A stretch of 64,000 nt of DNA from Leeuwenhoekiella polynyae (GTDB lineage Bacteria > Bacteroidota > Bacteroidia > Flavobacteriales > Flavobacteriaceae): NCBI RefSeq assembly GCF_004104075.1, contig NZ_QOVK01000006.1:1-64000 (forward strand), written 5' to 3'. The notes under the pieces were generated by a model that worked only from the letters and a program-made list of their open reading frames with translations, made no database searches and had not been told where the DNA came from. Below are positions 994-63,786 of the stretch, piece by piece. How positions within the stretch are numbered: position 1 is the stretch's first letter; each line of letters opens with the position of its first letter. The position numbers were made by a program, and so were the translations under genes.

Positions 994-2475
994 ATGAAAT
1001 CAACCCAAGATAATATTTCTGTAATAGAGAAAATAGGATATAGTTTAGGCGATCTGGCGGCTAATCTTATTTTTCAGACCTTAATGACCTTTCTGGCTTT
1101 CTTTTATACAGATGTTTACAAAATACCACCGGGTAAAGCGTCTTTTATCATTTTTACAGGAGGGATGATAGGTGCCTTTTTTAACCCGGTAATGGGTGTT
1201 ATTGCCGATCGTACTAAGACGCGATGGGGAAAATTTCGTCCCTGGATTTTATTTACTTCCATTCCTTTTGGTATTGTAGCAATCCTTGCTTTCAGCACGC
1301 CAGATTTTGATTTGACCGGTAAAGTGACCTATGCCTTGATTACCTATATTTTATTGGTGATCATTTATTCGGCTAATAACCTGCCTTATGCCTCACTTAG
1401 TGGCGTTATGACCGGAAATATGTCTGAGCGTAACAGTATTTCTTCGTATCGATTTGTAGCAGTGATGGTTGCTCAATTTGTCGTACAGGTGCTTTTATTA
1501 CCACTCGTTCTAATTCTTGGGGAAGGAGATAAGGTAGAGGGTTTTAAACAAACCATATGGTTGTTTGCGATTGTGGGGGTTGTCTTTTTTATCATTACCT
1601 TTTTAACTACCCGGGAACGCGTGTTACCGCAGGCAGAAGGAGTTTCTTCCGTTAAGCAAGACATTAAGGATCTTGTGAGAAATAAGCCCTGGCGTGCCGT
1701 TTTACTGATTACCATTTTTGTTTTTGTCACACTTTCCTTAAAGGGTGGGATGTATGTGTATTACTTTAATGATTTTGTAGATAATGCAAGTCTTAGCACA
1801 TTCTTAGAAAATATAGGCTTTAACGGGTTTATATTAAATCTAAATGAATGGCTTATAAATATGGGTTTCGTAGGCTTTACCTGGCCTGACGATCCTGCTA
1901 CTTCCGGGTTTAGCCTGTTTAATGCCGGAGGTATTATTATGATGATGGTAGGAATCGGGTTTTCAAAACCCCTTGCAGACAAATTTGGTAAGCGGGATAT
2001 ATTTGGACTTAGCCTGTTTTTATCCGCGGTGTGTCTCGTTCTCTTTTACTTTTATGACAATGATGCTATTGCATTAATATTTATAACACAATTGGTTCAC
2101 GGTCTGTTTTACGGTATATCTACCCCTTTGTTGTGGGCGATGATTGCCGATGTTGCAGATTACTCAGAGCTTATTAATTTCCGCAGGGCTACAGCGATTA
2201 TTTTTTCAGCAATGATCTTTGGTCTTAAAGCAGGCTTGAGTATTGGTGGTGCTTTAGTTGCAGGATTATTAGCCTGGTATGGGTATGATGAGCAGGCAGT
2301 ACTTCAGGATGCGTTAACCATTTCAGGTATTAAACTCTCGGTAAGTATTTATCCGGCACTTTTCTTCTTCGTAAGTGTTGCTTGCCTGATTTTCTATAAA
2401 ATTAACAAGGCTAAAGAACTTGAGATACAAGAAGAATTATCAAACAGACGCGAGCCTTCACCTAAAAGATTATAA
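994..2475 (+). CDS. GPH-family (MFS_2) sugar:cation symporter
   Basis: A 493-residue integral inner-membrane protein with about 12 hydrophobic segments. The N-terminal GYSLGDLAANLIFQ, the ADRTKTRWGKFRPW loop after TM2/3 and IADVADYSEL in the second half are hallmarks of the glycoside-pentoside-hexuronide:cation symporter family (MelB/XynB/UidB type). Members import xylosides, glucuronides or other glycosides with H+ or Na+. The gene sits between xylA and a GH10 xylanase, with a signal-less GH43 enzyme in the same run, so uptake of xylose or short xylo-oligosaccharides into the cytosol is the likely role. A hexuronide substrate is the main alternative, given the glucuronate genes nearby. The xylanase gene starts 15 bases after its stop. 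Confidence 0.9.
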   Translation: MKSTQDNISVIEKIGYSLGDLAANLIFQTLMTFLAFFYTDVYKIPPGKASFIIFTGGMIGAFFNPVMGVIADRTKTRWGKFRPWILFTSIPFGIVAILAFSTPDFDLTGKVTYALITYILLVIIYSANNLPYASLSGVMTGNMSERNSISSYRFVAVMVAQFVVQVLLLPLVLILGEGDKVEGFKQTIWLFAIVGVVFFIITFLTTRERVLPQAEGVSSVKQDIKDLVRNKPWRAVLLITIFVFVTLSLKGGMYVYYFNDFVDNASLSTFLENIGFNGFILNLNEWLINMGFVGFTWPDDPATSGFSLFNAGGIIMMMVGIGFSKPLADKFGKRDIFGLSLFLSAVCLVLFYFYDNDAIALIFITQLVHGLFYGISTPLLWAMIADVADYSELINFRRATAIIFSAMIFGLKAGLSIGGALVAGLLAWYGYDEQAVLQDALTISGIKLSVSIYPALFFFVSVACLIFYKINKAKELEIQEELSNRREPSPKRL

Positions 2476-2490
2476 ACTTAAACTACTTAA

Positions 2491-3630
2491 ATGAACAATT
2501 TATCGTCACTTATTCTACTGGCAGTATTGCTGGTAAGCTGCAAGCCTAATAAATTTTCAGATACTGCGCAGTTAGATGAAAAACCGTTAAAATTAAAAGA
2601 AGCTCTGGCAGATAAGTTTCTTATAGGTACTGCTTTAAACATAAGACAGATTAACGGTTACAACCCTGAAGAAATGGAGGTCGTACGAGAAAATTTCAAT
2701 TCTATTGTTGCTGAGAACTGTATGAAAAGTGAACGTCTGGTTCCTAATCAGGGGGAGTATGATTTCTCTGCTGCAGACAAGTTTGTAGCTTTTGGCGAAG
2801 AAAATAATATGGTCATTCACGGGCATACACTCATTTGGCATTCTCAAACTCCTAAATGGTTTTTTAAAGACAGTCTCGATCAGGAAATTACTCGTGAAGA
2901 ATTGATTTCCAGAATGAAAAATCACATCAATACGGTTGTATCTCGTTACAAAGGAAAAATAAAAACATGGGATGTCGTAAATGAGGCTGTTCTGGATGAT
3001 GGGACACTGAGAAAAAGTAAGTTTTACGATCTTCTTGGAGAAGATTTTATAAAAATGGCTTTTGAGTTTGCTCACGAAGCAGATCCTGATGCAGAATTAT
3101 ACTACAACGATTATTCAACCTCTTTACCTGAAAAAAGAGAAGGTATTGTGCGTATGGTAAAAAACCTACAGGAGCAGGGAGTACCCATCCATGGGGTAGG
3201 GATGCAAGGCCATGTAGGGATGGATTATCCGGAGCTTGAAGAGTTTGAAAAAACTATTGTTGCGTTTTCAGATTTAGGCCTTAAAGTTTCAGTAACTGAA
3301 TTTGACATTACCGTGCTTCCTTCTCCATGGGATAATCAGGGTGCCGAGGTTTCTGCAAATTTTGAATACAAAGAAGATATGAATCCGTATCCGGAAAAAT
3401 TACCGGACTCTGTAAGTACGGCTTTCAATAACAGGTGCTTCGATTTTTTCAAATTGTTTCTAAAACATGAAGATAAGATTGATAAAGTAACCCTATGGGG
3501 CGTTAACGATGGCAATTCATGGAGAAACAACTGGCCGATAGGGGGACGTACCGACTATCCGTTGCTTTTTGACCGGGATAACAAACCAAAAAGTGTTGTA
3601 GACTCAATCATTGCAATCGTAAAAAAATAA
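2491..3630 (+). CDS. GH10 endo-beta-1,4-xylanase, lipoprotein
   Basis: A 379-residue single-domain family 10 glycoside hydrolase. Residues 1-17 form a lipoprotein signal with lipobox LLVSC (Cys17). The TIM barrel fills the rest: HGHTLIWHSQTP at about 110-121, the acid/base Glu165 in WDVVNEA, and the nucleophile Glu270 in VTEFDI. It retains anomeric configuration and cuts internal beta-1,4-xylosyl bonds. No carbohydrate-binding module is present. The lipoprotein signal suggests attachment to the outer membrane, probably facing outward. It lies 15 bases after the transporter gene and 8 bases before a GH43 gene, so all are probably co-transcribed. A second GH10 lipoprotein is at 29355-30434. Confidence 0.96.
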   Translation: MNNLSSLILLAVLLVSCKPNKFSDTAQLDEKPLKLKEALADKFLIGTALNIRQINGYNPEEMEVVRENFNSIVAENCMKSERLVPNQGEYDFSAADKFVAFGEENNMVIHGHTLIWHSQTPKWFFKDSLDQEITREELISRMKNHINTVVSRYKGKIKTWDVVNEAVLDDGTLRKSKFYDLLGEDFIKMAFEFAHEADPDAELYYNDYSTSLPEKREGIVRMVKNLQEQGVPIHGVGMQGHVGMDYPELEEFEKTIVAFSDLGLKVSVTEFDITVLPSPWDNQGAEVSANFEYKEDMNPYPEKLPDSVSTAFNNRCFDFFKLFLKHEDKIDKVTLWGVNDGNSWRNNWPIGGRTDYPLLFDRDNKPKSVVDSIIAIVKK

Positions 3631-3638
3631 ATTCTATT

Positions 3639-5219
3639 TTGGGAATAATCAAGAATACATGTTGTTTTAAAAGTTCGCTTTTAGGTTTAACTATGTTTGT
3701 GCTTCAGGCAGCTGCACAAAATACGGCGTCAAACCCGTTGATCCATGCAGATGTACCCGATATGGCTATCATACGGGTTGACAGCACCTACTATATGAGT
3801 AGTACTACGATGCATATGAGCCCCGGAGTACCCATAATGAAATCAAAAGATCTCACGAACTGGGAACTTGTAGGCTATGCCTATGACAGACTCGTGGAAA
3901 ATGATGCAATGAATCTTGAAAACGGACAACAAACCTACGGGCGAGGTTCGTGGGCAAGTTCATTAAGGTTTCATAAGGGTACCTATTACTTATCAACTTT
4001 TTCAGCAACGTCTGGGAAAACGCATATTTATACAACCGGAGATATTGAGAACGGCCCCTGGGAAAAACACGAGTTTGCCCCTTCTTATCATGATCACACG
4101 CTCTTTTTTGAAGACGGAAAGATTTATATGATTTGGGGAGCGGGAGAGCTCAGTATCGTTGAGCTTAAGGATGACTTTAGCGGAGTGAAAGAAAATACGC
4201 GGCAGGTTTTAATTAAAAATGCTACTGAGCCTATAGGTGCCTCAATCATTTTACCCGCTGAAGGATCGCAACTCTTTAAACACAATGATAAGTATTACTT
4301 ATTCAACATCGCCTGGCCTCGTAATGGGATGCGTACAGTGATCATTCATCGGGCAGATCAAATAAAGGGTCCTTATGAAGGCAGAATTGCACTTCAGGAT
4401 AAAGGCGTCGCACAGGGCGGATTGATAGATACACCGGCTGGTGAATGGTTTTCGTATCTTTTTCAGGATAGTGGGGCAGTGGGGAGAATCCCTTATTTAG
4501 TTCCTGTAAAATGGGTAAATGACTGGCCGGTTCTGGGTGTTGACGGTAAAGTTCCGGAAACCCTCGACTTACCAGAAAATGGAAGTTTGATTCCGGGCAT
4601 TGTAAACTCAGACGATTTTGATCGGCAAGTGGGAGATCCTGCGCTTCCTTTGGTTTGGCAGTTTAACCACAACCCTGATAATTCGTTGTGGTCGGTTTCA
4701 GAACGTCCCGGCTATTTACGCCTAAAAACCGGAAGAATTGATACCCTGTTTCTACAGGCAAAAAATACGCTTACCCAACGCAGCATAGGTCCTGAATCTT
4801 CAGGCTCTATTAAAATGGATGTGACCAATATGAAGCCTGGTGATTTTGCCGGATTAGCGATCCTTCAGAAAAAATACGGACTGATCGGAGTAACCTGTGA
4901 AGGAGATCAAAAATCAATCTTTATGAGTAAAAACGACGAAGATGGGGGCTTACTTTCAAAAATTGAACTCAATCAGGATACCGTGTATTTTAAAATTGAA
5001 TGTGATTTTAAAAACCGAACAGATAATGCGTATTTCTACTACAGCCTAAATGGAGAAACCTGGGAGTCTCTAGGCGAAGTATTGCAGATGCAGTATACCC
5101 TCCCGCATTTTATGGGCTATCGCTTCGGTTTGTTTAATTATGCTACTGAGAATACAGGTGGTTCTGTCGATTTTGATTATTTCAGAATAACAGATACACT
5201 GTCTGCTAAAACCAATTAG
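3639..5219 (+). CDS. GH43 enzyme (beta-xylosidase/arabinofuranosidase) with C-terminal beta-sandwich
   Basis: A 526-residue secreted family 43 protein. The start chosen is a TTG at 3639: it gives a normal Sec signal (Lys5, hydrophobic core, AAAQ cleavage near residue 27), whereas the first in-frame ATG (residue 19) would leave almost no signal. The five-bladed propeller begins at about residue 33 with ADVPDM, whose Asp41 fits the general base. AEGSQLF at about 205 fits the catalytic acid. Residues from about 320 to the end resemble the concanavalin-like domain that follows GH43_11/12-type catalytic domains. Predicted to release xylose or arabinose from xylo-oligosaccharides in the periplasm. 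The exact specificity cannot be read from sequence. The next gene starts on the base after its stop. Confidence 0.88.
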   Translation: MGIIKNTCCFKSSLLGLTMFVLQAAAQNTASNPLIHADVPDMAIIRVDSTYYMSSTTMHMSPGVPIMKSKDLTNWELVGYAYDRLVENDAMNLENGQQTYGRGSWASSLRFHKGTYYLSTFSATSGKTHIYTTGDIENGPWEKHEFAPSYHDHTLFFEDGKIYMIWGAGELSIVELKDDFSGVKENTRQVLIKNATEPIGASIILPAEGSQLFKHNDKYYLFNIAWPRNGMRTVIIHRADQIKGPYEGRIALQDKGVAQGGLIDTPAGEWFSYLFQDSGAVGRIPYLVPVKWVNDWPVLGVDGKVPETLDLPENGSLIPGIVNSDDFDRQVGDPALPLVWQFNHNPDNSLWSVSERPGYLRLKTGRIDTLFLQAKNTLTQRSIGPESSGSIKMDVTNMKPGDFAGLAILQKKYGLIGVTCEGDQKSIFMSKNDEDGGLLSKIELNQDTVYFKIECDFKNRTDNAYFYYSLNGETWESLGEVLQMQYTLPHFMGYRFGLFNYATENTGGSVDFDYFRITDTLSAKTN

Positions 5220-6581
5220 ATGATGAAAAAAACATACGGTATACTTCCCAGATTATTCCAGAGAAAGCAATATAGCTTTATATTGATCGCCACGTTTATG
5301 CTTGGTGTTCAATTCATTTGGGCGCAAAACCCGTTAGTACGCGATCAATACACAGCAGATCCTACTGCTCGTGTATTTAATGATAAAATATATGTATACC
5401 CTTCTCACGACATTATGTGTACCGAAGAAAAAGGTCGTCCGGGGTGGTTTTGTATGGAAGATTACCATGTTTTTTCTTCAGAAAATCTCACAGAGTGGAA
5501 AGATCACGGGGAAATACTCAATCAAAAAGATGTGTTCTGGGCTGATGACGAAGGATATAGCATGTGGGCTCCCGATTGTGTCGAGAAAGACGGTAAATAC
5601 TATTTCTACTTCCCTACAAAACCAAAGGATACTGAAGGCTTTACCATAGGTGTTGCAGTAGGTGACAATCCCGAAGGTCCGTTTACTCCGCAGGAAAAGC
5701 CTATTGCTAATGTGAATGGGATAGATCCCAATGTGTTTATTGATAGCGATGGTCAGGCGTATCTATACTGGTCGGGACGCGATATTTGGGTCGCTAAGCT
5801 AAAGCCGAACATGCTTGAGCTCGCTTCAGAGCCTCAGATTATAGCCAATCTTCCCCAGGAAGGGCATAAAGAGGGGCCGTTTGTTTTTGAGCGCAACGGC
5901 ATCTATTACTTGACCTATCCACACGTAGAAAACAAAACAGAACGTCTAGAGTATGCGATGGGTGACAGCCCAATGGGACCTTTTAAGGTTACTGGGGTTA
6001 TTATGGACGAAAGTCCTACAGGTTGCTGGACCAACCATCATTCTATTTTAGACTATAAAGATCAGTGGTATTTGTTTTACCATCATAATGACCTGTCACC
6101 AGATTTTGATAAAAACCGTTCTATACGCGCAGACAGTCTCTCTTTTAATGCAGACGGAACGATTAAAAAAGTAATACCCACATTGCGTGGAATAGGAATT
6201 AATAAGGCTTCAGGAAAGCTTCAGATTGATCGGTATAGTGCTAAAAGTGCCAATGCAGTGTTGCATTTTAATAATTCGCAAAACACCTTTGAAGGTTGGA
6301 ATATTGCTTTAAACCAAAACGATTGGGTACAATATAATGCTGTAGATTTTGACAAGACGTATGCTAGTCTGGCGATGCGGGTGAATGCTACCGAAAAATC
6401 GCAACTGCAGATCGTAGATACGACCAAAAATACCATACTTGCGGAGATTGAAATCCCGGGAAACACGGGATGGCTTGAATATGAAGCAGCCCTACCTCAA
6501 ATAGAGCCTGCTGTTTACAATTTAAAAGTGGTGTTAAAAGCAGGTGAGGCAAGCATAGACTGGATACGCTTTAAGAGCTAA
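5220..6581 (+). CDS. GH43 enzyme with C-terminal CBM6, secreted
   Basis: 453 residues: signal peptide ending near WAQ (residue 36), GH43 propeller at about 38-320, and a CBM6-like beta-sandwich at about 345-453 (NQNDWVQYNAVDF and IDWIRF at its end). Catalytic residues visible are base Asp47 (TADPTA), pKa modulator Asp169 (NGIDPN) and acid Glu218 (HKEGPF). The enzyme inverts configuration and most likely removes arabinofuranose or xylose from xylan fragments, with the CBM6 holding the xylan chain. ATG follows directly on the previous TAG, which implies translational coupling. The following gene encodes a related GH43 that lacks both the signal and the CBM6. Confidence 0.92.
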   Translation: MMKKTYGILPRLFQRKQYSFILIATFMLGVQFIWAQNPLVRDQYTADPTARVFNDKIYVYPSHDIMCTEEKGRPGWFCMEDYHVFSSENLTEWKDHGEILNQKDVFWADDEGYSMWAPDCVEKDGKYYFYFPTKPKDTEGFTIGVAVGDNPEGPFTPQEKPIANVNGIDPNVFIDSDGQAYLYWSGRDIWVAKLKPNMLELASEPQIIANLPQEGHKEGPFVFERNGIYYLTYPHVENKTERLEYAMGDSPMGPFKVTGVIMDESPTGCWTNHHSILDYKDQWYLFYHHNDLSPDFDKNRSIRADSLSFNADGTIKKVIPTLRGIGINKASGKLQIDRYSAKSANAVLHFNNSQNTFEGWNIALNQNDWVQYNAVDFDKTYASLAMRVNATEKSQLQIVDTTKNTILAEIEIPGNTGWLEYEAALPQIEPAVYNLKVVLKAGEASIDWIRFKS

Positions 6582-6643
6582 AACGCTAGTGCAAGCCCAA
6601 CGAGAAGAATCATTAAAATAATAATAGTTATAAAAATTAGACA

Positions 6644-7609
6644 ATGAAAGAACCCAGATACCTAGTAGATCACGCGTATATGGCAGATCCTTCTGCTCAT
6701 GTATTCAATGGTAAAATTTATATTTATCCTTCTCACGACGTAGAATCTGGAATCCCCGAGAATGATAACGGAGATCATTTTGATATGCGTGATTACCATG
6801 TGTTCTCAATGGATGCAATAGACGGTGAGGTAACTGATCACGGCAAAGTACTGAGTGTAAAAGATATTCCGTGGGCAGGCAGACAGCTTTGGGACTGTGA
6901 TATCGCCTTTAAGGACGGTAAGTATTACCTGTATTTTCCACTAAAAGACCAGACAGATATTTTTAGAATAGGTGTTGCCATAGGAGATAAGCCTGAAGGT
7001 CCATTTAAGCCATTACAAGCGCCTATGAAAGGGAGTTTCTCTATTGACCCATGTTTATTTAAAGACGATGACGGTGCGCATTATATGTACTTTGGAGGCT
7101 TGTGGGGCGGTCAGTTGCAGCGCTACAGAGAGGGTAAAGCTATTGAGTGTGGTGCAGAACCGGCAGATAACGAGCCAGCTTTACCCGCAAGAATTGCAAA
7201 AATGAGTGATGATATGCTGGAATTCGCCGAAGCGTCTAAACCCATTGTTATCTTAGATGATGAGGGAAAGCCTTTAACAGCTGGAGATCATGACCGAAGA
7301 TTTTTTGAAGCTTCCTGGGTGCACAAATACAAAGGGACTTATTACTTTTCGTACAGCACCGGAAACACGCATAAGTTGTGTTATGCAACAGGAGATAATC
7401 CGTATGGACCGTTCACCTATCGCGGAGTAATCTTAACACCGGTTGTAGGCTGGACGACACATCATTCAATTATCAAATTTAACGACAAATGGTACCTGTT
7501 CTATCACGACAGTGTTCCTTCAGGAGGTAAGACCTGGTTAAGAAGCATGAAGGTGATTGAATTTGACTACAATCCTGACGGCAGCATCAATACCCTGCAG
7601 GGTTCTTAG
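6644..7609 (+). CDS. GH43 enzyme without signal peptide, probably cytosolic
   Basis: 321 residues, nearly just the catalytic propeller. The protein starts MKEPRYLVDHAYMADPS with no hydrophobic leader, so base Asp15 lies right at the N terminus. Asp135 (SIDPC) and Glu222 (FFEASW) fit the pKa modulator and acid. The large insertion with WGGQLQ and the overall look match the GH43_1 beta-xylosidase/arabinofuranosidase type. It is followed by a strong terminator at 7627-7651. Together with the GPH transporter and XylA it suggests a cytosolic route for imported xylobiose or arabinoxylobiose. No upstream in-frame start would add a signal peptide. Confidence 0.9.
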   Translation: MKEPRYLVDHAYMADPSAHVFNGKIYIYPSHDVESGIPENDNGDHFDMRDYHVFSMDAIDGEVTDHGKVLSVKDIPWAGRQLWDCDIAFKDGKYYLYFPLKDQTDIFRIGVAIGDKPEGPFKPLQAPMKGSFSIDPCLFKDDDGAHYMYFGGLWGGQLQRYREGKAIECGAEPADNEPALPARIAKMSDDMLEFAEASKPIVILDDEGKPLTAGDHDRRFFEASWVHKYKGTYYFSYSTGNTHKLCYATGDNPYGPFTYRGVILTPVVGWTTHHSIIKFNDKWYLFYHDSVPSGGKTWLRSMKVIEFDYNPDGSINTLQGS

Positions 7610-7626
7610 TCCCAAAATAATCATTT

Positions 7627-7651
7627 AAAAGAGGCTTATGCCTCTTTTTTT
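7627..7651 (+). terminator. Intrinsic terminator after the GH43 gene
   Basis: AAAAGAGGC-TTAT-GCCTCTTTT is a perfect 9-bp stem with a 4-base loop, followed by TTT. It lies 18 bases after the GH43 stop and ends the transporter-GH10-GH43 run. The CE15 gene starts 52 bases further on and so probably has its own promoter or depends on read-through. Confidence 0.85.
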
Positions 7652-7702
7652 GGTTTCAGACAGGTTTCTCGCTACTAATCCAATCCTTTAAACCGAATTC
7701 GT

Positions 7703-9073
7703 ATGTACTTCAAAATATCTAATGTTTTTGTATTACTTACATTCATTTTTTTGCCTCTGGTACTGTTTTGTCAAAATACGGCTCAGATACGCGATAGCAT
7801 CAATACCTACACGTATCTTGATTTTAAACACATGAAAGAACAGCTGGAAATCGCTACTGAAAACAGACCGGGACCGTCAGGAAACCCCAATGATTCAAAT
7901 GCTGCAAATACCGATGAGTCTGCCGTAAGGGAATATATTCTACCAGATTTGTTAATCGCCAAAAATGGAGAAAAGATTTCCACATCAAAACAGTGGGAGC
8001 GCCTACGAAGACCAGAACTTATTGAAAGCATCGAAACTGAAATGTATGGCCGCATTCCGGATAACATACCGGAGATTTCTTGGATTGTCGAATCTACTAG
8101 AGATACGGTGATAGGTGGCGTGCTCATTCAGGAAGAACGTTTAAAAGGTATAGTTGATAATGCTGTCTATCCTGAAGTAGAAGTTGAAATTCAGGTGCTT
8201 TTAGGATTACCCAAATTGGAAAAAAGGAGTGCCATTCCTGTAGTAATTGAACTGGGATTTTTGAATTCTCCCTTCGGTAAGATCAACGAGCCTTCCAGTT
8301 ACTTTATTTCACCTTATGTGCCGCGTTTTAAACAACAACTTACTATGCAAGGCTGGGGCTATGCCATTTTAGACGTAAATAGCATTCAGGCTGATCACGG
8401 AGCTGGTTTGAAATCGGGTATAATAGGTTTGGTAAATAAAGGTGAATCACGGTCACCCGATGATTGGGGAGTATTAAGAGCCTGGGGTTGGGGTGCAAGC
8501 AAGCTGGTTGATTATTTTTCGGAAAGAGCTGATGTAGATCAGGAGCGTGTTGCGGTAGAAGGCACTTCCCGTTACGGAAAGGCTGCTTTAGTAGCGATGG
8601 CTTTTGATCCGCGTATTTCCTTAGGTTTTATTGGTTCTTCAGGTGCTGGCGGTGCTTCCATTTTGCGCAGAAATTTTGGGGAATCTGTTGAGAATTTAGC
8701 CTCAACCGCAGAGTATCATTGGTTTAGTGGAAATTTTATCAAATATGCGAGTCTTAAAACGGTAGACGATCTTCCGTTTGACGCGCACTCGGTCATCGCA
8801 CTCTGTGCGCCGCGCCCGGTGTTTATAAGTGCAGGATCTTCAGCTATAGAAGGAAATTGGGTTGATGCTAAAGGTATGTTTCTGGGAGGTTTAAATGCTA
8901 GTCCGGTTTATAAGCTGTACGGATTTAAAGGCTATGCAACGAATGATTTTCCTTTTATGGGAACTGCCCTTACCGAGGGAGAACTAGCATTCAGACAACA
9001 CGGAGGCGGGCATTCAACCGGTCCCAACTGGAGTACCTGGATTGCATGGGCCAGAAGGTATTGGGATAACTAA
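7703..9073 (+). CDS. CE15 glucuronoyl esterase
   Basis: 456 residues with a signal peptide (hydrophobic core 8-23, cleavage near FCQ). The alpha/beta-hydrolase fold carries EGTSRYGKAAL around nucleophile Ser289, the CE15 G-x-S-R-x-G-K signature, and GGGHST with His437 near the C terminus. WGVLRAWGWGASKLVDY before the nucleophile is also typical of the family. CE15 enzymes split ester bonds between 4-O-methyl-glucuronic acid on xylan and lignin alcohols. In this locus the enzyme would expose glucuronate for the adjacent GH115 and GH67 alpha-glucuronidases. The gene is convergent with GH115; 101 bases separate the stops, with only a weak ACTAA/TTAGT hairpin at 9089-9102. Confidence 0.9.
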   Translation: MYFKISNVFVLLTFIFLPLVLFCQNTAQIRDSINTYTYLDFKHMKEQLEIATENRPGPSGNPNDSNAANTDESAVREYILPDLLIAKNGEKISTSKQWERLRRPELIESIETEMYGRIPDNIPEISWIVESTRDTVIGGVLIQEERLKGIVDNAVYPEVEVEIQVLLGLPKLEKRSAIPVVIELGFLNSPFGKINEPSSYFISPYVPRFKQQLTMQGWGYAILDVNSIQADHGAGLKSGIIGLVNKGESRSPDDWGVLRAWGWGASKLVDYFSERADVDQERVAVEGTSRYGKAALVAMAFDPRISLGFIGSSGAGGASILRRNFGESVENLASTAEYHWFSGNFIKYASLKTVDDLPFDAHSVIALCAPRPVFISAGSSAIEGNWVDAKGMFLGGLNASPVYKLYGFKGYATNDFPFMGTALTEGELAFRQHGGGHSTGPNWSTWIAWARRYWDN

Positions 9074-9174: not shown

Positions 9175-11982
9175 CTAATCTGTTGCGATCTTTTTGGTAA
9201 GAGGTACAAGATAGGTATCCTGCAGGTTGTTAGGTGATTTAAAAACAAGTTGTTGTACAACTACACCCGGGTCTTTGCCAAAGATTTTAAGTGTATGATT
9301 TCCTGGTAATAGATTGACTGCTGTTTTTACACGAGTCGCGTTGTTGCTAACACTTGCTCCCCAATTGTCAGAGGTGTCCTGATGCATATTTAATACCTGC
9401 ACAGCACCTTCATCAATTTGATACTTAAATGCTAAGCCTCCTTGATTTTTAAAATCTAAAGTAGGAGAGAGGTAGAAGGTAAGTGTACCTTTTAATTCCT
9501 GCTCAGTATAAAACTCATATTTTAGTTGGGTATTAGCATTGGTTATTTCTTTTGAAAAGCGTTTCTCGGGTCTAAGCGCTATATCTTGTCTACCAAGATC
9601 GGATATTACTTCCCAACCTGTATTTTTAACAAATCCGTCTGCGGGTATAGTGAGCATTCCGTTGTATGCCAAAAAGCCTGTAGCATTTTCAGAATACGGT
9701 GCATAAGATACCCGTATTTCAGCTTCCTGATCAACAGATTTAATTGAAAACGAAGTGGTAACAGGCTCTTGAGGAAGCTTCTTTAGATTAAGTTTTAATT
9801 CAATAACCTGTTCTTCAGAAAAAGATCCTTTCTTGAGGTTTGCCGTAAGCCACTTAGGCAATTTGTTCAGTTTAAAATCAAGGTCGTCAACCCCCGTATT
9901 AAAAAGGGTAATCTGCTGAACGGTATGTGATTGATCGAAAGGAAGAATTTCAAGCGTATTCACTTTAGGATAAAAAGCTGTTGTTCCTGATGTAACAATA
10001 CCTAACTTACCAGTTTGTGGTATTTCAATTGTGTTGGTTTCTGGTTTTGTGTTTTTACGGGGTTCTTGCCAGTAGGTGTATCCAATATGAGTTTGATCCA
10101 TAAAATGATTCCATTTTGAATCATTAAGGCTATGATAGGCTTCGGTTAATGCTTTGTCGTTTTCAAATAATTCCTGAACTAGATCTGAATATTGGTTGGT
10201 TGTATTTCGGCCTTGTTTCGCATACAATTTGTTTTTTGCTGTAGCGATGTAAAGTCGGTTAAGATTTGCCATTGCTTCAATAGGAAACAAGACCAACTGA
10301 TAATAAGCAGATTGATATACAACATCCAATTTATCTTTGATTGCAAGCGCTTTCTCCTCTAAATTCTTATATTCCTCTAGAATAGTCCCAGCCTCATTAG
10401 AGTACGTTAGACTGAACGTTTCCGGGCTCAATAATTCGGGTTTACGACGGCTTGCCAGAGTTGAATAGGTCTGCAATAATTCTGCTATTTCAGAAGCATA
10501 AGTATCTCCAAATTGCGCTGCTGCCCATTTTTTGGGATAGTTTGCAAGATCTTTTAAGTCAAATTTTTCCGGATTCCAGGCGTAGTCGAGAAAGAAACTC
10601 GTTGGGTATTCCATCGGCTTAATATCGCCCACATTTACAATCCATATTTTACGGGCGTTGTAAGCATATGCCAGAGACATTTGCTCATACACTCTTGAAA
10701 TCTGATTGGTGTTGAGCCATTTGTAATTACGCGGACCGCCCACATAATCAAAATGGTAGTAAATACCGTATCCCCCTGCGCGTTCCCCTTCTTCGGGATT
10801 GGGTAATTTTCTAATATTTCCCCAGTTGTCATCAGCAAGGAGTAGTGTTACATCGTCTGGAACACGCATTCCCTGATCGTAATAATCCTGAACCTCTTTA
10901 TACAAAGCCCAGAGTTGTGGCGTTTCATTAGCAGGTTTTTGCGTAACCGCTTCAATAATATCCCGTTGATCCTTTACAATACCCTCGAGCAATTCAATTG
11001 CAGTACCTTCGGTCATGGGTTCGTCACCATCCCCGCGCATGCCTACAGTAACAATACTTTCGTTAGTATCCATTCGCTCAATTCCTTTTTTCCAAAAATC
11101 GCGTAAGGTTTCGGCATTCGTAGTATAATTCCAGTCTCCTACTCCATACTTATCCCATTCTGCGTGTGCCCGCATTAAAGGTTCGTGATGCGAAGTTCCA
11201 ATCACCACACCATATTTTTCAGCTTCAATCGGGTTTTGTGGATCGTCATCATAAAAAGCACGTCCCCACATCGCAGGCCAAAGGTAGTTCCCCTTCAATC
11301 TTAAAATCAGTTCAAAAACATGCTCATAGAACTCGTGGTTAAACGAGCCAAAATTTTCTCCAACCCATCCTGAAAGTGCCGGAGCTTCGTCGTTGATGAA
11401 AATACCTCGATACTGCACTTTAGGTCCCATATCAGTAAATGATTTTGACGTAATGTAAAGCTCTTTTGATTTTTTTACAGGAACGTCTGCCCACCAATAC
11501 CATGGGGAAACTCCTATTTTTTCTGAAAGTGTATAAACGCCATAAATGGTACCGCGTTTATCGCTACCGGCTATTACCAGATTTCCATCAATCTGCTGAA
11601 TTGTAAAGGCTTCCCATTTATTTTTGATGGAATCGGGATTGAGCTTTCCGGAAACGATCAGTTCATCCAGATACTTGCTTTTACCCAAAGTCCCAATGAT
11701 TACCCCGCCACTTCCCTTAAAAGTTTCTGCAAGCTCTGGCTTTATAGAACTTACACGTTCTATATCCTTTTGTAAATTTTCAACCGCAATATGAACGCCC
11801 TCGTAATCTTCGGCATCAATTACTAACTGCGCGGCAGTAGTACCACCAATAAGCTTAAATGCACCCGCTTCTGTATTTTGAGAAACCGAAATATTCTGAG
11901 CAACTAAATCTGTACTGCTAAAAATTAAAACGATTGCGAAGAAAAATAAGGACGATTTTATTGATATAGATTGAATGAACAT
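9175..11982 (-). CDS. GH115 xylan alpha-1,2-glucuronidase
   Basis: 935 residues with a Sec signal (cleavage near LVAQ, residue 29). The order fits GH115: an N-terminal alpha/beta domain (to about 190), a TIM-barrel core with YRGIFINDEAPAL and GNYLWPAMWGRAFYDDD, a helical middle region with ARKIWIVNVGDIKPMEYP, and a long C-terminal beta-sandwich region. These enzymes remove (4-O-methyl)glucuronic acid from both internal and terminal xylose residues of polymeric xylan. This complements GH67, which needs the terminal position. It is the last gene of the GH67-SDR-uxuA-GH115 run, 29 bases after uxuA. Length is usual for the family. Confidence 0.95.
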   Translation of the reverse strand: MFIQSISIKSSLFFFAIVLIFSSTDLVAQNISVSQNTEAGAFKLIGGTTAAQLVIDAEDYEGVHIAVENLQKDIERVSSIKPELAETFKGSGGVIIGTLGKSKYLDELIVSGKLNPDSIKNKWEAFTIQQIDGNLVIAGSDKRGTIYGVYTLSEKIGVSPWYWWADVPVKKSKELYITSKSFTDMGPKVQYRGIFINDEAPALSGWVGENFGSFNHEFYEHVFELILRLKGNYLWPAMWGRAFYDDDPQNPIEAEKYGVVIGTSHHEPLMRAHAEWDKYGVGDWNYTTNAETLRDFWKKGIERMDTNESIVTVGMRGDGDEPMTEGTAIELLEGIVKDQRDIIEAVTQKPANETPQLWALYKEVQDYYDQGMRVPDDVTLLLADDNWGNIRKLPNPEEGERAGGYGIYYHFDYVGGPRNYKWLNTNQISRVYEQMSLAYAYNARKIWIVNVGDIKPMEYPTSFFLDYAWNPEKFDLKDLANYPKKWAAAQFGDTYASEIAELLQTYSTLASRRKPELLSPETFSLTYSNEAGTILEEYKNLEEKALAIKDKLDVVYQSAYYQLVLFPIEAMANLNRLYIATAKNKLYAKQGRNTTNQYSDLVQELFENDKALTEAYHSLNDSKWNHFMDQTHIGYTYWQEPRKNTKPETNTIEIPQTGKLGIVTSGTTAFYPKVNTLEILPFDQSHTVQQITLFNTGVDDLDFKLNKLPKWLTANLKKGSFSEEQVIELKLNLKKLPQEPVTTSFSIKSVDQEAEIRVSYAPYSENATGFLAYNGMLTIPADGFVKNTGWEVISDLGRQDIALRPEKRFSKEITNANTQLKYEFYTEQELKGTLTFYLSPTLDFKNQGGLAFKYQIDEGAVQVLNMHQDTSDNWGASVSNNATRVKTAVNLLPGNHTLKIFGKDPGVVVQQLVFKSPNNLQDTYLVPLTKKIATD

Positions 11983-12011
11983 ACGTACGTTTTTTGTGTT
12001 TTTATAGAACT

Positions 12012-13178
12012 CTAAGAAGGCTGTAAACCCAATTCAAGACCGGTAAGTTCTGCGAGGCCTTTAAGCCTGCCAATGAACGAATAGCCTACGTAATAGGGTT
12101 TGTCTTTTTCTAATGTGTGCAGGTAACCGTGGTCAGGTCGCATGGGTATTTTTTTACCGGTTGATGCTGCGTAATTCATAATATGTTGCAGCACTTGCTT
12201 CATAGGCACATCGCCATCCAGATGATCGGATTCAAAGAAGGTGCCGTCTTCAAATTTTCGAACATTCCTCAAGTGTAAAAAATGAACACGTTCTTTGTAT
12301 TTTTCAAAAATATCAACGAGTTGGTTTGCAGGATTTGCACCCAATGATCCTGTGCAGTAGCAGAGTCCGCAAGCGGTAGATTCAATATTTGAAAAGATAA
12401 AGTCCAGATCGGTTGCTTTACTTACAATACGTGGAAGTCCCAATACTGAAAATGGCGGATCATCCGGATGAATCGCCAGTTTTGAGCCTACAGCTTCAGC
12501 AGTAGGCGTAACGGCTTCTAAAAACAACACTAAATGTTCCCGAAGTTTATCTTCATCGATGTCTTTGTATTCCTCCAGTTGTGTCAGCAAATCTTCTGTA
12601 GTAAAATCTTCAGTACTTCCCGGAAGTCCCAGCATCACGCTATTCTTTAAAACTTTGATATCTTCTTCAGAAAAGCTTTCAAATTTCTGTTTAGCCTCGT
12701 TAATTTGGTATTTGTTATAATCTGCTTCTGCTCCGGGTCTTTTCAGAATAAATAAGTCAAAAGCACGGAATTTTACGGGGTCGTATTTTAGAATTTCGGC
12801 TCCTGCTTCGTTTTTAAAGCGGTGATCAGTACGCACCCAATCCAAGATGGGCATAAAATTATAGGTGATGGTGTAAATCCCCTGATCGGCCAGGTTTTTA
12901 AGACTTACCTTATACTTTTCGATAAGCTCCTCAAAGTTTCCGGTGCGCTTTTTAATATTTTCATGTACCGGAAGGCTTTCAACCACTTCCCAGATCATTC
13001 CGGCGTCTTCAATTTTAGTTCTGGTCTTTTCTATTTCTTCTGGGGTCCAGATATCCCCAACAGGGATGTGGTGTAGCGCCGTTACAATTCCGGAAATACC
13101 GGCCTGACGCAAATCTTCTAAGCTTAATACATCACGCTCTCCATACCAGCGCATTGTTTTGATAATTGAAGTTTTCAT
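12012..13178 (-). CDS. uxuA: Mannonate dehydratase
   Basis: 388 residues, cytosolic. The N-terminal MRWYGERDVLSLEDLRQAG, the HHIPVGDIW segment, IHPDDPPFSVLGLPRIV and MRPDHGYLH near the C terminus are UxuA signatures, and the last two hold metal-binding His residues. It dehydrates D-mannonate to 2-keto-3-deoxygluconate, the step after reduction of fructuronate in glucuronate catabolism. Its ATG follows directly on the SDR stop codon, so translation is coupled. Glucuronate isomerase (UxaC), KDG kinase and aldolase are not in this window and must be encoded elsewhere. Confidence 0.96.
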   Translation of the reverse strand: MKTSIIKTMRWYGERDVLSLEDLRQAGISGIVTALHHIPVGDIWTPEEIEKTRTKIEDAGMIWEVVESLPVHENIKKRTGNFEELIEKYKVSLKNLADQGIYTITYNFMPILDWVRTDHRFKNEAGAEILKYDPVKFRAFDLFILKRPGAEADYNKYQINEAKQKFESFSEEDIKVLKNSVMLGLPGSTEDFTTEDLLTQLEEYKDIDEDKLREHLVLFLEAVTPTAEAVGSKLAIHPDDPPFSVLGLPRIVSKATDLDFIFSNIESTACGLCYCTGSLGANPANQLVDIFEKYKERVHFLHLRNVRKFEDGTFFESDHLDGDVPMKQVLQHIMNYAASTGKKIPMRPDHGYLHTLEKDKPYYVGYSFIGRLKGLAELTGLELGLQPS

Positions 13179-13919
13179 TTAAAATCCTATTGAGTTTCCA
13201 CCGTCAACACAAAGTACGGTGCCGGTTGTAAATTTTGATAAGTCGGAAGCGTAGTAAAAAACCGTATCGCCAATGTCTGAAGGCTCTCCCAGCTTAGCCA
13301 TAGGCGTTCTGCCTAACACTTTATTTTTGCGTTCGGGGTCACTATCCAGGGCTTTACTAGACATATTGGTTTTGATAAAACCGGGAGCTACACAGTTTAC
13401 ACGTATGCCATACTGAGCCAAGTCAACCGCCATAGAACGCGTCATTCCTTCAATAGCCGATTTGCTGGCCGTATAAGCTACCACTTTGGGAATCCCATAT
13501 TGAGCAGCCATCGAGCTGATGTTGATGATGCTACCTGAGTTTTGTATCTTCATGACTTTAGTAACCTCGCGGCTCACTGCAAAAACGCTGATAAGATTTG
13601 TATGAATAATACGCTGAAATTCATCATCTTCAACTTCCAGAAAATCCTTTTTCATATTGATTCCTGCATTATTCACCAGTATATCAATACCACCAGCTTC
13701 TTCTGTAATATGTGCTATCGCTTGAGGAATTTTGTCAAGTTCACTAAGATCGAGAATATAAGAACGGGCATTAGGTCCTAATTCTTCGAGGGCTTTTTCA
13801 GTTTTTTCAGGATTTCTACATATGATATAGGTTATGATGTTTTCGTCACAAAGTTTTTTTGCGATTGCAAAACCTAGACCGGCATTTCCACCGGTAACAA
13901 GAGCTATTTTTTGTTTCAT
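13179..13919 (-). CDS. SDR-family oxidoreductase, probable D-mannonate/fructuronate reductase
   Basis: 246 residues, a classical short-chain dehydrogenase: TGGNAGLG nucleotide-binding motif at the N terminus, NNAG at about 86-89, catalytic Ser in ISSMAA, Tyr/Lys in YTASKS, and DGGNS at the C terminus. The family signature gives only NAD(P)(H)-dependent oxidoreduction. The role is inferred from the gene lying directly between GH67 and uxuA, where the fructuronate to mannonate step (UxuB function) is missing. Alternatives are a gluconate- or other sugar-acid dehydrogenase. It starts 3 bases after the GH67 stop and abuts uxuA. Confidence 0.85.
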   Translation of the reverse strand: MKQKIALVTGGNAGLGFAIAKKLCDENIITYIICRNPEKTEKALEELGPNARSYILDLSELDKIPQAIAHITEEAGGIDILVNNAGINMKKDFLEVEDDEFQRIIHTNLISVFAVSREVTKVMKIQNSGSIINISSMAAQYGIPKVVAYTASKSAIEGMTRSMAVDLAQYGIRVNCVAPGFIKTNMSSKALDSDPERKNKVLGRTPMAKLGEPSDIGDTVFYYASDLSKFTTGTVLCVDGGNSIGF

Positions 13920-13922
13920 TTC

Positions 13923-16073
13923 TTAATCCCAAGAGGGTTTTATACCGGGAGCATAAGGATCCCGTATAGATTCATAGTATTTGAGTGTGTGCGGTGCTTT
14001 GGGGATAAAATCAGGTAGTTCCATTTTTGAAAACTGCTGAAAATACAGCAGGCAGGAATCCCGCCACCATTGAGCTTCTTCCAGTTGAATGCTTAATAGC
14101 ATTTCAGTTTTTTTATAAGCGATTTCATCAACATAAGGTTTCATTTGCTCCCAAGTGTTGATCATTTTTTCAACTTCTAGAACCCCGTCCTGATAATGTC
14201 TCGCAAGATTGTACCAAAGGGTTTTACCATTTTTCAGCTTATAACCCCATGGAACATGGTGAAACCAAAGCAGGTATTTTTCAGGAGTTGTTTCGATATT
14301 TGAATAGGCTTTTTCGATTTCTGGTGCATATTGTGATAAGGCATCACTGCCTGTTGCAGTACGGTCGAAGCCAATGCCCAGACTGTCTGCTTTATGGTAA
14401 TAAACTGAAGTCCAGTCTTCACGACCTAAATCTTTTACCCAAGGTCCAGGTCCTTGATGATGCCCTTCTGCCATCATATGATGCAATCCTAAAGGAGTCA
14501 TATAATCTACCACGGCTTCGCGTGAATCGAGCAGGAGGGAAGTCATAGGTTTTACAAATGCTGGATCTGTAGAAAAGGTCATTCCCAACCATTCTTGAGC
14601 GATGGTTTTAGCTTTAAGTTCCGGGTTCCAGGCAAGTCTGCCAAAGCCATACCAGTTGGCTTGCGCAAAAGGATGACCGGTCCAGTTACGGGCATTACCT
14701 ATATTTGAGACTCCTGCAATACCGGTTAGTTGGGTGTCTGTCAACGAGCCAGCTACCACTTTTGCAACCGTACTTCCCTTGCCTTGTGAAAATGTATCTT
14801 CCTGTAAAGTCTCTTCAAATAATTTAGGTAAAAACACCAGATGAGACATACCACCCAGATATTCCTGAGTGATTTGAAATTCCATCATCAAAGGGGTTTC
14901 TGGCATAGCGCCAAAAAGCGGATGAAAAGGCTCTCTTGGCTGAAAGTCTATTGCCCCATTCTTAACCTGAACCAGAACATTGTCTTTAAAGGTCCCGTCA
15001 AAAGGGACAAACTCGGTATAGGCCTGCTTGGCACGATCATCAGGTTTCTCGTCTGAATAAACAAAAGCCCGCCACATAACAATCCCGTCATGGGGAGCAA
15101 CTGCTTCTGCCAGCATATTTGCTCCATCAACATGCGATCTGTTGTAATTATTTGGTCCGGGTTGTCCTTCAGAATTTGCTTTTACCAGGAAGCCTCCAAA
15201 ATCTGGAATTTCGGCATAGATTTCTGTTGCTTTATCTTTCCACCATTGACGCACTTCTTCATTGAGTGGATCTGCAGTTTCTAACCCGCCAATTTCAATT
15301 GGTGCCGAGAAACGTGCAGTTAAGTAAACCTGAATTCCGTAAGGTCTAAAAGCATCTGCCAAAGCTTTTACTTTTTCGAGATAGTTTTTCTGAAGTATAT
15401 ACGCACTTGCATTTACATTGGTAAGAACAGTGCCGTTTATACCTATGGATGCATTGGCACGCGCATAATCTATATATTCCTGTTTGATGAGATTTGGTAA
15501 CAAGTGCCAGTCCCAGATGGAAAAACCAGCATAACCACGCTCTATCGTGCGGTCAAGGTTATCCCAATGATTCAGCAGACGTTTTTTTATTTTAGGTGAA
15601 TCTGTAATTGAAAGTTCAGTCAAATCTTTATGCAGTTGGAGCTGTTTTAAATAGGTAAAAACACCATACAATAAGCCTTGATCTGTCTTTGCGGTAATTA
15701 GAATTTTAGCTGTTGATTTACTGGGAATAGTTTGTATGCTAAAGCCTTCATCATTAATAGAATCGATAAGGTTTTGCTTAGGTTTTAAATTTTTAGGAAG
15801 ATCAGCTACTTTTCTAATAAGTAAAGTAGGATTCTCTTCTGAGAACTGGGGTTTCTGCGAAAGCATACCTTGCATTGCCAGTTTGAGTTCCTTTTGTATG
15901 ACCTTACCTGTTGAAGAAGTGGTGTCCAGACTTATGGCTTCATTTAATTCTGAATAGTGTTGGCGAAGCTTGGCGTCATCGACGGTTTTATATTGAAGCC
16001 AAAGCTTGTATCCGTCTTGTGCACTACCATAAGAAGATACAAATACTAAAAGTCCTAGTATTAGTTTTTTCAT
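13923..16073 (-). CDS. aguA: GH67 alpha-glucuronidase
   Basis: 716 residues with a signal peptide (cleavage near YGSAQ, residue 19). Features of GH67 are HWDNLDRTIERGYAGFS, NASIGINGTVLTNVN and the catalytic-acid motif KANSEGQPGP with Glu302. SNIGNARNWTGHPFAQANWY in the second half also fits. It removes (4-O-methyl)glucuronic acid from the non-reducing-end xylose of short aldouronic acids. It is the first gene of a four-gene operon. A perfect 16-bp palindrome lies at 16111-16126, 38 bases before the ATG, and is the likely LacI-family operator. The signal peptide puts it in the periplasm, whereas some family members elsewhere are intracellular. Confidence 0.96.
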   Translation of the reverse strand: MKKLILGLLVFVSSYGSAQDGYKLWLQYKTVDDAKLRQHYSELNEAISLDTTSSTGKVIQKELKLAMQGMLSQKPQFSEENPTLLIRKVADLPKNLKPKQNLIDSINDEGFSIQTIPSKSTAKILITAKTDQGLLYGVFTYLKQLQLHKDLTELSITDSPKIKKRLLNHWDNLDRTIERGYAGFSIWDWHLLPNLIKQEYIDYARANASIGINGTVLTNVNASAYILQKNYLEKVKALADAFRPYGIQVYLTARFSAPIEIGGLETADPLNEEVRQWWKDKATEIYAEIPDFGGFLVKANSEGQPGPNNYNRSHVDGANMLAEAVAPHDGIVMWRAFVYSDEKPDDRAKQAYTEFVPFDGTFKDNVLVQVKNGAIDFQPREPFHPLFGAMPETPLMMEFQITQEYLGGMSHLVFLPKLFEETLQEDTFSQGKGSTVAKVVAGSLTDTQLTGIAGVSNIGNARNWTGHPFAQANWYGFGRLAWNPELKAKTIAQEWLGMTFSTDPAFVKPMTSLLLDSREAVVDYMTPLGLHHMMAEGHHQGPGPWVKDLGREDWTSVYYHKADSLGIGFDRTATGSDALSQYAPEIEKAYSNIETTPEKYLLWFHHVPWGYKLKNGKTLWYNLARHYQDGVLEVEKMINTWEQMKPYVDEIAYKKTEMLLSIQLEEAQWWRDSCLLYFQQFSKMELPDFIPKAPHTLKYYESIRDPYAPGIKPSWD

Positions 16074-16110
16074 AAGTTTAAAATATAGGAAAGTGAATTT
16101 AATAAAAATA

Positions 16111-16126
16111 ACGCAATCGGTTGCGT
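16111..16126. promoter_or_regulatory. LacI-type operator, near-perfect palindrome, before GH67-uxuA-GH115
   Basis: ACGCAATCGGTTGCGT has perfectly complementary arms ACGCAA/TTGCGT and a central CG, the usual architecture of LacI/GalR operators. It lies between the end of the lacI-type gene and the start of GH67, 38 bases before the GH67 ATG. It is the reference site for related sequences found at 637, 17271, 19756, 63659 and 63781. Repression relieved by a sugar ligand is the usual mode for this family, but the sign of regulation is not shown by sequence. Confidence 0.75.
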
Positions 16127-16166
16127 AAAATTTGTGTTTTAAGATAGAAATCTACTTTTTTACACG

Positions 16167-17210
16167 CTATTGAATGGGTGTGCTTTTACGTAAACTTGAT
16201 GCTCTTACAATTAAATGCGTATCCATTACTGAAATTTCTTTTGCTATCTCTGCGCCTTCATTTCCGGAATGTTCCAAAATTCGACGTGTTGATAGCTCTC
16301 CCATTTTTTGAGCCGGATGGTAAACGGTAGATAATGCCGGTTCTACAATAGAAGAAATAGGATCATCATTAAAACCAATAATTGCAACATCTTCAGGGAT
16401 TTTATATCCTGATTTTTTTAAATAAATGATAGCGCTTACAGCTGCAGTATCGTTTGAAGAGAAAATGCCATCGGGTGGTGAAGCTAAATTATAAAGCGCT
16501 TCGGTACATTGCTGGCCTTCTTCAAAACTTAAGGAATTCATATAAATAATGAGTTCTTCGTCTACAGGGAGATTATATTTTTTGAGCGCATCTACATAAC
16601 CCCTTCTGCGTTCACTATAAACGTTTATATGCTGAGAACCTGCAAAATGAGCAATGCGTTTGCAACCTTGCTCTATGAGATGTTCTGTAGCCCGATAGCC
16701 AGCAGTGTAATTATCAATTATTACGTGATAACTGGGAAAATCTTTAGGAACACGGTCTACAAATACCACCGGAATATCCTGATCAACAAACTGATTAAAA
16801 TGATCAGTGTTTTGGGTTTCCATACTCAGCGATGCGATTATTCCGCCTACACGGCTGTCAAATAATGCTTTAGCGTTTGCAATCTCGTTAGTTATACTGT
16901 CATTAGATTGCGAGATGATGACATTATACCCTTTTTTGCGTGCTTCGGTTTCTATACCACTAATTAGGTTAGAACCAAAAGGCCTACTTATCTTAGGAAC
17001 AAGAACACCTATGGTTTTGCTTTTGTTTTTACGAAGGCTGGCTGCAATAGAATTAGGGCGATAGCCTTGCTCTTTAGCAGCCTTTTGAATGAGTTGAGTA
17101 GTCTTTTTACTGATACTTTTATGATTTTTTAGAGCCCGGCTAATTGTACTTGCAGAATAATTTAATTCACGTGCTAAATCATGAATGGTTAGGGTTTTCT
17201 TTTTTTTCAT
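16167..17210 (-). CDS. LacI/GalR-family transcriptional regulator
   Basis: 347 residues from the ATG at 17210. The helix-turn-helix is TIHDLARELNYSASTISRAL (about 7-26), followed by the hinge with YRPNSIAASLRKNKSKTIG and a periplasmic-binding-protein-like sensor ending in HLIVRASSL. An ATG at 17252 would add 14 residues not typical of the family. It lies upstream of a good -7 box (17228-17235), so 17210 is preferred. The protein probably binds the 16-bp palindromes at 16111-16126 and related sites, including one before its own promoter. The ligand is unknown; position beside GH67/uxuA suggests a glucuronate- or xylose-related sugar. Confidence 0.93.
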   Translation of the reverse strand: MKKKKTLTIHDLARELNYSASTISRALKNHKSISKKTTQLIQKAAKEQGYRPNSIAASLRKNKSKTIGVLVPKISRPFGSNLISGIETEARKKGYNVIISQSNDSITNEIANAKALFDSRVGGIIASLSMETQNTDHFNQFVDQDIPVVFVDRVPKDFPSYHVIIDNYTAGYRATEHLIEQGCKRIAHFAGSQHINVYSERRRGYVDALKKYNLPVDEELIIYMNSLSFEEGQQCTEALYNLASPPDGIFSSNDTAAVSAIIYLKKSGYKIPEDVAIIGFNDDPISSIVEPALSTVYHPAQKMGELSTRRILEHSGNEGAEIAKEISVMDTHLIVRASSLRKSTPIQ

Positions 17211-17227
17211 CCGTAAAAATTGAATTG

Positions 17228-17235: not shown

Positions 17236-17270
17236 ACGTTTTCGACTGACAAGATTAGTTTTGATCAGGA

Positions 17271-60430: not shown

Positions 60431-60440
60431 AATTAATTTT

Positions 60441-63755: not shown

Positions 63756-63786
63756 CAAATGTATGTAAATCTCACGTACCACACAA
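63756..63786 (-). promoter_or_regulatory. Promoter of susC-like gene 2
   Basis: On the minus strand, TTG (63786-63784), 20 bases, then TACATTTG (63763-63756). The second element is an exact fit to the Bacteroidetes -7 consensus, and the spacing fits the -33/-7 architecture. The predicted leader is about 185 bases. The -33 element falls inside the operator-like site 63781-63796. Confidence 0.6.

Follow-up and report, generated by a model that had tools for sequence, protein, structure and literature searches.

The 64,000 nucleotides of DNA analysed here (the window) form the beginning of contig C6 in the 4.79 Mb genome of Leeuwenhoekiella polynyae and carry a glucuronoxylan locus, in which Pfam recognizes two SusCD pairs, an HTCS, a LacI-family regulator, glycoside hydrolases and esterases. 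A first-pass annotation had noticed a 16-bp palindrome at six places of this locus and proposed one LacI-type regulon over all of it. But which regulator would read these palindromes, and which of the genes would it govern? We suggest, with a probability of roughly 0.87 and on grounds of sequence, that the palindromes are predicted operators (consensus RYGCAAYCGRTTGCRY) of the LacI encoded at 16167-17210 and that they mark a glucuronoxylan regulon.

The locus and its predicted operators

The genes concerned, all assigned by Pfam, are:

994..9073, plus strand: MFS_2 (GPH-type) transporter, GH10, three GH43 and CE15; possible target behind the weak site 637
9175..13919, minus strand: genes downstream of GH67
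9175-11982, minus strand: GH115
12012-13178, minus strand: UxuA mannonate dehydratase
13179-13919, minus strand: SDR, uxuB-like
13923..16073, minus strand: GH67 alpha-glucuronidase, first gene of the operon
16167..17210, minus strand: LacI-family regulator, 347 aa counted from ATG (also from translation and tree)
30437..34570, minus strand: HTCS sensor-regulator, the second regulator of the locus
58502..63563, minus strand: SusC 2 / SusD 2, predicted target pair

The tight spacing of GH67, uxuB, uxuA and GH115 suggests that they form a single operon. For lacI, the TTG start of the listed open reading frame at 17252 probably lies too far upstream. The window opens with the C-terminal part of a xylose isomerase (3-392), a gene truncated by the contig start; a second, full-length xylose isomerase is found at C1:250043, and a terminator-like hairpin can be made out by eye near 577-600. 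The SusCD 1 gene set includes a vanadium-chloroperoxidase/PAP2-like protein (27847-29340) and a large FG-GAP/ASPIC-UnbV protein (24415-27759).

All six 16-mers noticed previously were found again at the same positions and with the same identities. Scanning the contig up to 83 kb with a weight matrix trained on 14 GH67-upstream sites, all of them from other genera, placed 16111, 64098, 63781 and 17271 on top:

16111..16126, no strand assigned: operator 1, ACGCAATCGGTTGCGT, 38 bp upstream of the GH67 start; rank 1, 26.6 bits
C6:64098-64113 (L024 1098-1113): new site, TTGCAACCGATTGCGT; rank 2, 24.3 bits
63781..63796, minus strand: operator 3, ACGCAATCGGTTGTGT, upstream of susC 2; rank 3, 23.2 bits
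17271..17286, no strand assigned: operator 2, ACGCTATCGATTGTGT, 61 bp upstream of the lacI ATG; rank 4, 17.3 bits
637..652, no strand assigned: weak site, ACTTAATCGATTGCGA, 342 bp upstream of the GPH/MFS_2 transporter gene; rank 7, 13.1 bits
63659..63674, no strand assigned: weak second susC 2 site, ACTCAATCGATTTCGC; rank 8, 11.8 bits

Thus three of the six places hold good sites (16111, 63781 and 17271) and one more lies outside the window, while 637 and 63659 are weak and 19756 is unsupported. The additional site, 98 bp past the window end and so invisible to the first-pass annotation, is situated 57 bp upstream of a GH3-SASA esterase-FG/GAP-GH31 gene set. The site before lacI makes autoregulation possible. 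The matrix scores of 637 and 63659 are on par with those of matches inside genes, and 63659 may be auxiliary or simply unrelated. As the contig starts within xylA, site 637 sits between xylA and the transporter gene; we hold it loosely, in part because its left half resembles the palindrome near another LacI, on C14. The candidate at 19756, before susC1, scored 5.1 bits (rank 28), which is noise level, and has a single good half-site. Comparison with G144, the genome of a sister species in the same genus, is uninformative for 19756 because the surrounding region is 95% identical throughout. In this genome 16111, 17271, 63781 and 64098 are all unchanged, and the cores of 63659 and 637 are kept amid altered flanks, the 63659 stretch having diverged.

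Above-noise sites were absent before susC1, HTCS/GH97a, SusD2, hyp695 and FG-GAP 1 and from the gap between CE15 and GH115. With six other promoter regions of the window, including that of HTCS/GH97, lacking a LacI-type site, the idea of one regulon over the whole xylan locus is not supported.

How far could these matches be due to chance? In 100 dinucleotide shuffles the best matrix score averaged 12.9 bits and reached 24.6 bits, so that a matrix score by itself is no proof. With at most 3 mismatches, the 16-mer of the first-pass annotation is matched 6 times in the window when both strands are counted, which amounts to 3 distinct sites; shuffled sequence gave 0.33 matches on average. The pattern ACGCAATCGATTGCGT, also with at most 3 mismatches, marks 5 sites in the window, where 0.23 are expected per 64 kb (P ~4e-6), and a sixth at C6:64098. 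Over the whole 4.79 Mb, however, it matches 23 times at 3 mismatches as compared to 21 times for the reversed-pattern control; the enrichment is therefore local only, and it is local clustering and stricter matching that are informative. The clustered sites are all intergenic (6/6), as opposed to 4/17 elsewhere in the genome, where 12 of the 17 matches outside C6 lie inside listed ORFs and one (C1:383898) overlaps a gene start. The match at C11:55772 (19.1 bits), 131 bp upstream of a GH43-CBM6 gene, is a possible distal target; no counterpart at 1 mismatch was present among the G144 matches listed. The match at C1:560272 adjoins another LacI. A plasmid search with window positions 16000-17300 gave no match.

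The site accompanies the LacI ortholog in the Flavobacteriaceae

Conservation was assessed in 397 genomes of the family, sampled in two parts, with a LacI of at least 50% identity over the protein taken as ortholog and a match with at most 2 mismatches within 400 bp upstream of GH67 taken as site. In the extended sample 5 LacI candidates were scored per genome, and genomes with weak GH67 matches (G207, G323 and G379; E 2e-5 to 2e-4) were counted as GH67-negative. The first sample (199 genomes) contained 18 genomes with the LacI ortholog, and GH67 was found in 24 genomes, namely in 17/18 ortholog genomes and in 7/181 others. The site was present upstream of 16/18 GH67 genes in the 17 LacI genomes and of 0/7 without LacI. 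Composing the pattern RYGCAAYCGRTTGCRY after viewing matches in relatives carries a risk of circularity; as a control, the 16-mer of the first-pass annotation was searched in other genera with at most 4 mismatches and gave 14/16 versus 0/7. Moreover, 200 permuted half-sites matched on average 0.01 and at most 1 of the 18 GH67 upstream regions.

The second sample consisted of genomes that had played no part in devising pattern and matrix. It contributed 14 further ortholog genomes, of which 13 have GH67, as well as 11 genomes with GH67 only. Here the site precedes 12/14 GH67 genes in the 13 LacI genomes as compared to 0/12 in the 11 genomes without (Fisher 1e-5, to be read as nominal, like the other P values, because genera are shared and homologous promoters are not independent), and the reversed pattern matched 0/26 GH67 upstream regions. 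For 8 of the 13 genomes, the first sample held no ortholog genome of the genus, and the site is found in 8/8 of these; the other 5 belong to genera already represented among the ortholog genomes of that sample. Taken together, the site lies at 28/32 GH67 genes in 30 genomes with the LacI ortholog and at 0/19 in 18 LacI-free genomes. Of the 397 genomes, 30 contain LacI as well as GH67, 2 contain only LacI, 18 only GH67 and 347 neither of them (P 3e-30). The co-occurrence of site and regulator over the 48 GH67-bearing genomes makes the LacI the best candidate reader, in agreement with the LacI-type nature originally ascribed to the palindromes.

Among 15 genera the site is 80% identical, a value inflated by pattern-based picking, whereas identity falls to 36-39% in the 30 bp to either side. 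A conserved site amid diverged flanks points to selection on the site rather than to a promoter conserved as a whole. Whole-genome pattern counts amount to 87 versus 11 for the control in the 18 ortholog genomes and to 170 versus 94 in the 181 others; the forward counts, which include some sister-type palindromes, differ between the two groups with P 2e-9. The four GH67 genes that lack the site are both copies in G110 (L238, L253) and both in G308 (L277, L288); they belong to the genus g111, which has the LacI ortholog (54%) and GH67, yet 0/4 GH67 genes with the site. With 1 mismatch allowed, the pattern matches 1, 1 and 0 times in the ortholog genomes G061, G110 and G115. Conversely, G037, G105 and G041 lack the ortholog yet contain 8, 7 and 5 matches (control, 0 each); a similar site may be used by another regulator in these genomes.

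LacI, its paralogs and the HTCS as candidate readers

The window LacI has an N-terminal helix-turn-helix (PF00356, 42.9 bits, cut-off 27) and an effector domain that matches PF00532, PF13377 and PF13407 above their cut-offs, with CcpA and PurR structures among the matches. It is 97% identical to the LacI of Leeuwenhoekiella aestuarii, and a quick tree, obtained by a short search and containing the window protein twice, sets the orthologs apart as a clade of their own (SH-aLRT 98). The hinge helix of LacI proteins inserts a leucine at the central CG of the operator. In the window protein this helix reads SIAASLRK, and the leucine is kept across the 20 clade sequences inspected; the central CG is present in 65/65 oriented site-gene pairs, which were preselected by matrix score. 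The sites at 16111 and 17271 flank lacI as central-CG palindromes near its own gene.

The genome encodes eight LacI proteins. A palindrome scan that covered six of the eight loci, all but C1:9300 and C35, found no palindrome near the lacI genes on C5 and C3 and palindromes at four loci, all with the central CG but with different bases around it. The half-site is of the (A)CGCAAY-CG type for the window LacI, of the GTGCAAA-CG type with an AACGTT core at C1:102030 (GTGCAAACGTTTGCAT), of the TTGTAAT-CG type at C1:559914, which encodes a uronate-type LacI (TTGTAATCGTTTACAA and GTGCAATCGATTGTAT), and of the ACTTAAT-CG type on C14 (ACTTAATCGATTTAGT). A sister motif of about RTGTAATCGATTRCAY adjoins uronate catabolism genes in L204, L207, L181 and L183 and is also found at G000:C1:560272; in L183 and L204 it additionally adjoins a LacI paralog (37% identical).

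Could a different LacI protein encoded in the genome, such as that of C1:102030 or C1:559914, read the sites, the window LacI being a mere neighbour? We regard this as very improbable, although C1:102030 is the closest own-genome paralog (46% identical), adjoins a palindrome close to the operator and has a nearly identical recognition helix (SASTISRAL), so that cross-binding is possible. The palindromes next to the paralogs differ from the operator, however, G172 encodes a member of the C1:102030 group and yet has a GH67 gene without the site, and the site tracks the separate ortholog clade. Still harder to credit is that the palindromes belong to the HTCS or to another xylan regulator. The HTCS is encoded in the same locus, and a homolog of at least 41% identity is present in 6/16 LacI genomes of other genera in the first sample (G111, G113, G030, G154, G127 and G164). 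But the palindrome has a LacI-type shape, and site presence was not found to track HTCS presence across GH67 genomes. In 4/7 LacI-free GH67 genomes of the first sample (G011, G129, G172 and G075) a homolog of the window HTCS (at least 45%) is encoded no more than about 2 kb from the GH67 match, and LacI and site are both absent. On the other side, the site precedes GH67 in the LacI genomes G108, G040, G175, G049 and G157, where none of the 24 candidates scored in each gave an HTCS match at E 1e-200. These two sets of genomes indicate that loci use the HTCS, the LacI or, as in the window, carry both. It is as if the two regulators may replace each other at GH67, and the earlier idea of two sensors acting in parallel would fit this evolutionary pattern.

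Proposed mode of action

The geometry of the promoters offers a hint as to how the window LacI would act. The Flavobacterium consensus is TTTG at -33 and TANNTTTG at -7, the -33 motif being described as much less evident in the part of the study consulted (PMC6847099). Downstream of operator 3 we find:

63756..63763, minus strand: putative -7 element TACATTTG, 17 nt beyond operator 3

The TTG of operator 3 lies 20 nt upstream of this element, that is, in the -33 position. More generally, a -7-like TAnnTTT, a looser form chosen after viewing aligned sequences, occurs at +32/+33 from the first base of the site in 14/65 oriented pairs (nominal P 3e-11) and not in the other 51. In these 14 pairs it starts 16-17 nt past the site, with the operator TTG 19-20 nt upstream of the box. 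The background is about 1% per offset, and 3/53 sites that are followed by no gene have the box at +32/+33. The exact TAnnTTTG shows a weak peak (4/15 matches at +32/+33, a position at which 4/69 pairs have it). Since the site would cover the -33 element in this arrangement, bound LacI would block the promoter, and most members of the LacI family are repressors. That only 14/65 pairs have the box at the set distance leaves some room for a LacI that acts as an activator or as a roadblock at some sites and not by covering -33, which we consider rather improbable given that the site does cover -33 wherever the box is at the preferred distance.

Predicted targets and candidate inducer

The genes behind sites are GH67-uxuB-uxuA-GH115, lacI and susCD 2 in the window and GH3-SASA esterase-FG/GAP-GH31 beyond it. 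In relatives sites precede susC, GH3, GH115, GH10, GH11, GH43 and transporter genes, and also xylB-xylA in G143 (20 bits) and, as a 4-mismatch site only, in G154. The operator is further found about 205 bp upstream of tkt-tal in G175 and G049 (L197 5255-7958, L208 2157-4860). It precedes IlvD/EDD-GntP-FAA hydrolase operons in G113 and G154 (L189 5046-9999, L195 1117-5014), the former joined by an aldehyde dehydrogenase gene; this gene set is suggestive of an oxidative pentonate pathway. Finally, genes for DUF6807 or 3-keto-disaccharide hydrolase proteins lie behind sites in G108, G175 and G049. Three genera are represented, with DUF6807 genes in L186 (5034-8735) and L201 (2594-4964), both with Gfo/Idh/MocA oxidoreductases, and in L205 (4034-4849), and with a 3-keto-disaccharide hydrolase gene in L202 (5181-6587). 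These operons could possibly be a novel branch of xylan catabolism.

Which breakdown product would then be sensed? The same regulon might respond to a uronate (glucuronate, fructuronate or aldobiouronic acid) through a UxuR-like regulator, an alternative that we judge unlikely but worth taking seriously. Alpha-glucuronidases and uxuAB form the core of the targets; in both G113 and G108 the site is located between GH67 and uxaC, with kdgK, kdgA and dctP following uxaC in G113; it precedes uxuB-uxuA in G094 even though GH67 is absent there; and 19-bit matches lie inside dctP of G175 and G049. In addition, a LacI-type UxuR serves glucuronate in Bacteroides (PMC3878776, as far as its accessible text goes). 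However, the pentose-side targets of the relatives, xylB-xylA, tkt-tal and the pentonate-type operon, speak for a xylose-type inducer. So does the observation that the kdgK-kdgA-dctPQM sets of G175 and G049 adjoin a LacI paralog (in G175) or TGTAATCGATTRCA-type sites. Judged from target content alone, a xylose-type inducer would thus be favoured over a uronate.

For the window LacI as a repressor we propose the following scheme. A LacI dimer would bind across the central CG and cover the -33 region of Bacteroidota-type promoters, and would in this way repress GH67-uxuB-uxuA-GH115, susCD 2 and the GH3 operon past the window end, and possibly also lacI itself. Release would be brought about by a glucuronoxylan breakdown product in the cytosol, xylose or a short xylo-oligosaccharide being the likeliest, and the HTCS would add a separate activation cued by periplasmic oligosaccharide.

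Glucuronoxylan use is accompanied by a soluble LacI and its predicted operators over 30 Flavobacteriaceae genomes. The operator provides a sequence handle by which uncharacterised genes can be linked to xylan use, and regulator replacement and stacking become directly testable through the occurrence of either HTCS or LacI at GH67. Only tentatively do we extend this to one LacI clade that would act as master repressor of glucuronoxylan use throughout the Flavobacteriaceae and would link the breakdown of the polymer with pentose metabolism and also, in several genera, with extra operons. If this were true, the DUF6807-Gfo/Idh/MocA, 3-keto-disaccharide hydrolase and IlvD/EDD-GntP-FAA operons would suggest that xylan products are handled by an oxidative route, by way of keto-sugars or pentonate.

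Comparison with known systems

In Xanthomonas, XylR is a LacI repressor for xylanase and xylose genes. XylR and AraR are named as LacI-family repressors in the xylan regulation of other phyla, and the control of Bacteroidota polysaccharide loci is attributed mostly to HTCS and sigma/anti-sigma pairs, in the part of the review consulted (PMC10766802). For Bacteroides, xylose use has been assigned to an NrtR-type XylR (Ravcheev et al. 2013, PMC3878776, in the part consulted). As uronate genes in Bacteroides and, in other phyla, xylan genes are known to be under LacI control, the regulon proposed here is of a known kind, and our search of the open-access literature found no description of a LacI glucuronoxylan regulon in Flavobacteriaceae. 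A related case is Gramella flava, where a figure of the xylan PUL shows lacI with aguA (GH67), xylA and xylB and the accessible portion of the paper describes no operator or regulon (PMC5306329).

By function the system resembles the xylan regulators of other phyla in that a LacI repressor would act on xylanase and xylose genes (PMC10766802, in part); it differs from them in phylum and promoter type. With UxuR (BT1434) and similar regulators of Bacteroides it shares the LacI family, the Bacteroidota, the prediction by comparative genomics and the glucuronate side; by contrast, its targets are the polysaccharide-level GH67, GH115, susCD and GH10 together with pentose genes (PMC3878776, in the portion consulted). 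In operator sequence the system resembles PurR of Escherichia coli, whose consensus ACGCAAACGTTTGCGT is likewise a 16-bp palindrome with a central CG and ACGCAA half-sites (PMC4576408, from the part consulted), and whose plan of a helix-turn-helix and a periplasmic-binding-like domain is that of the window LacI. PurR differs in that its central CG is flanked by A and T, where C/T and A/G are found here, and in its purine ligand, which is not expected for a regulator whose predicted targets are glucuronoxylan genes.
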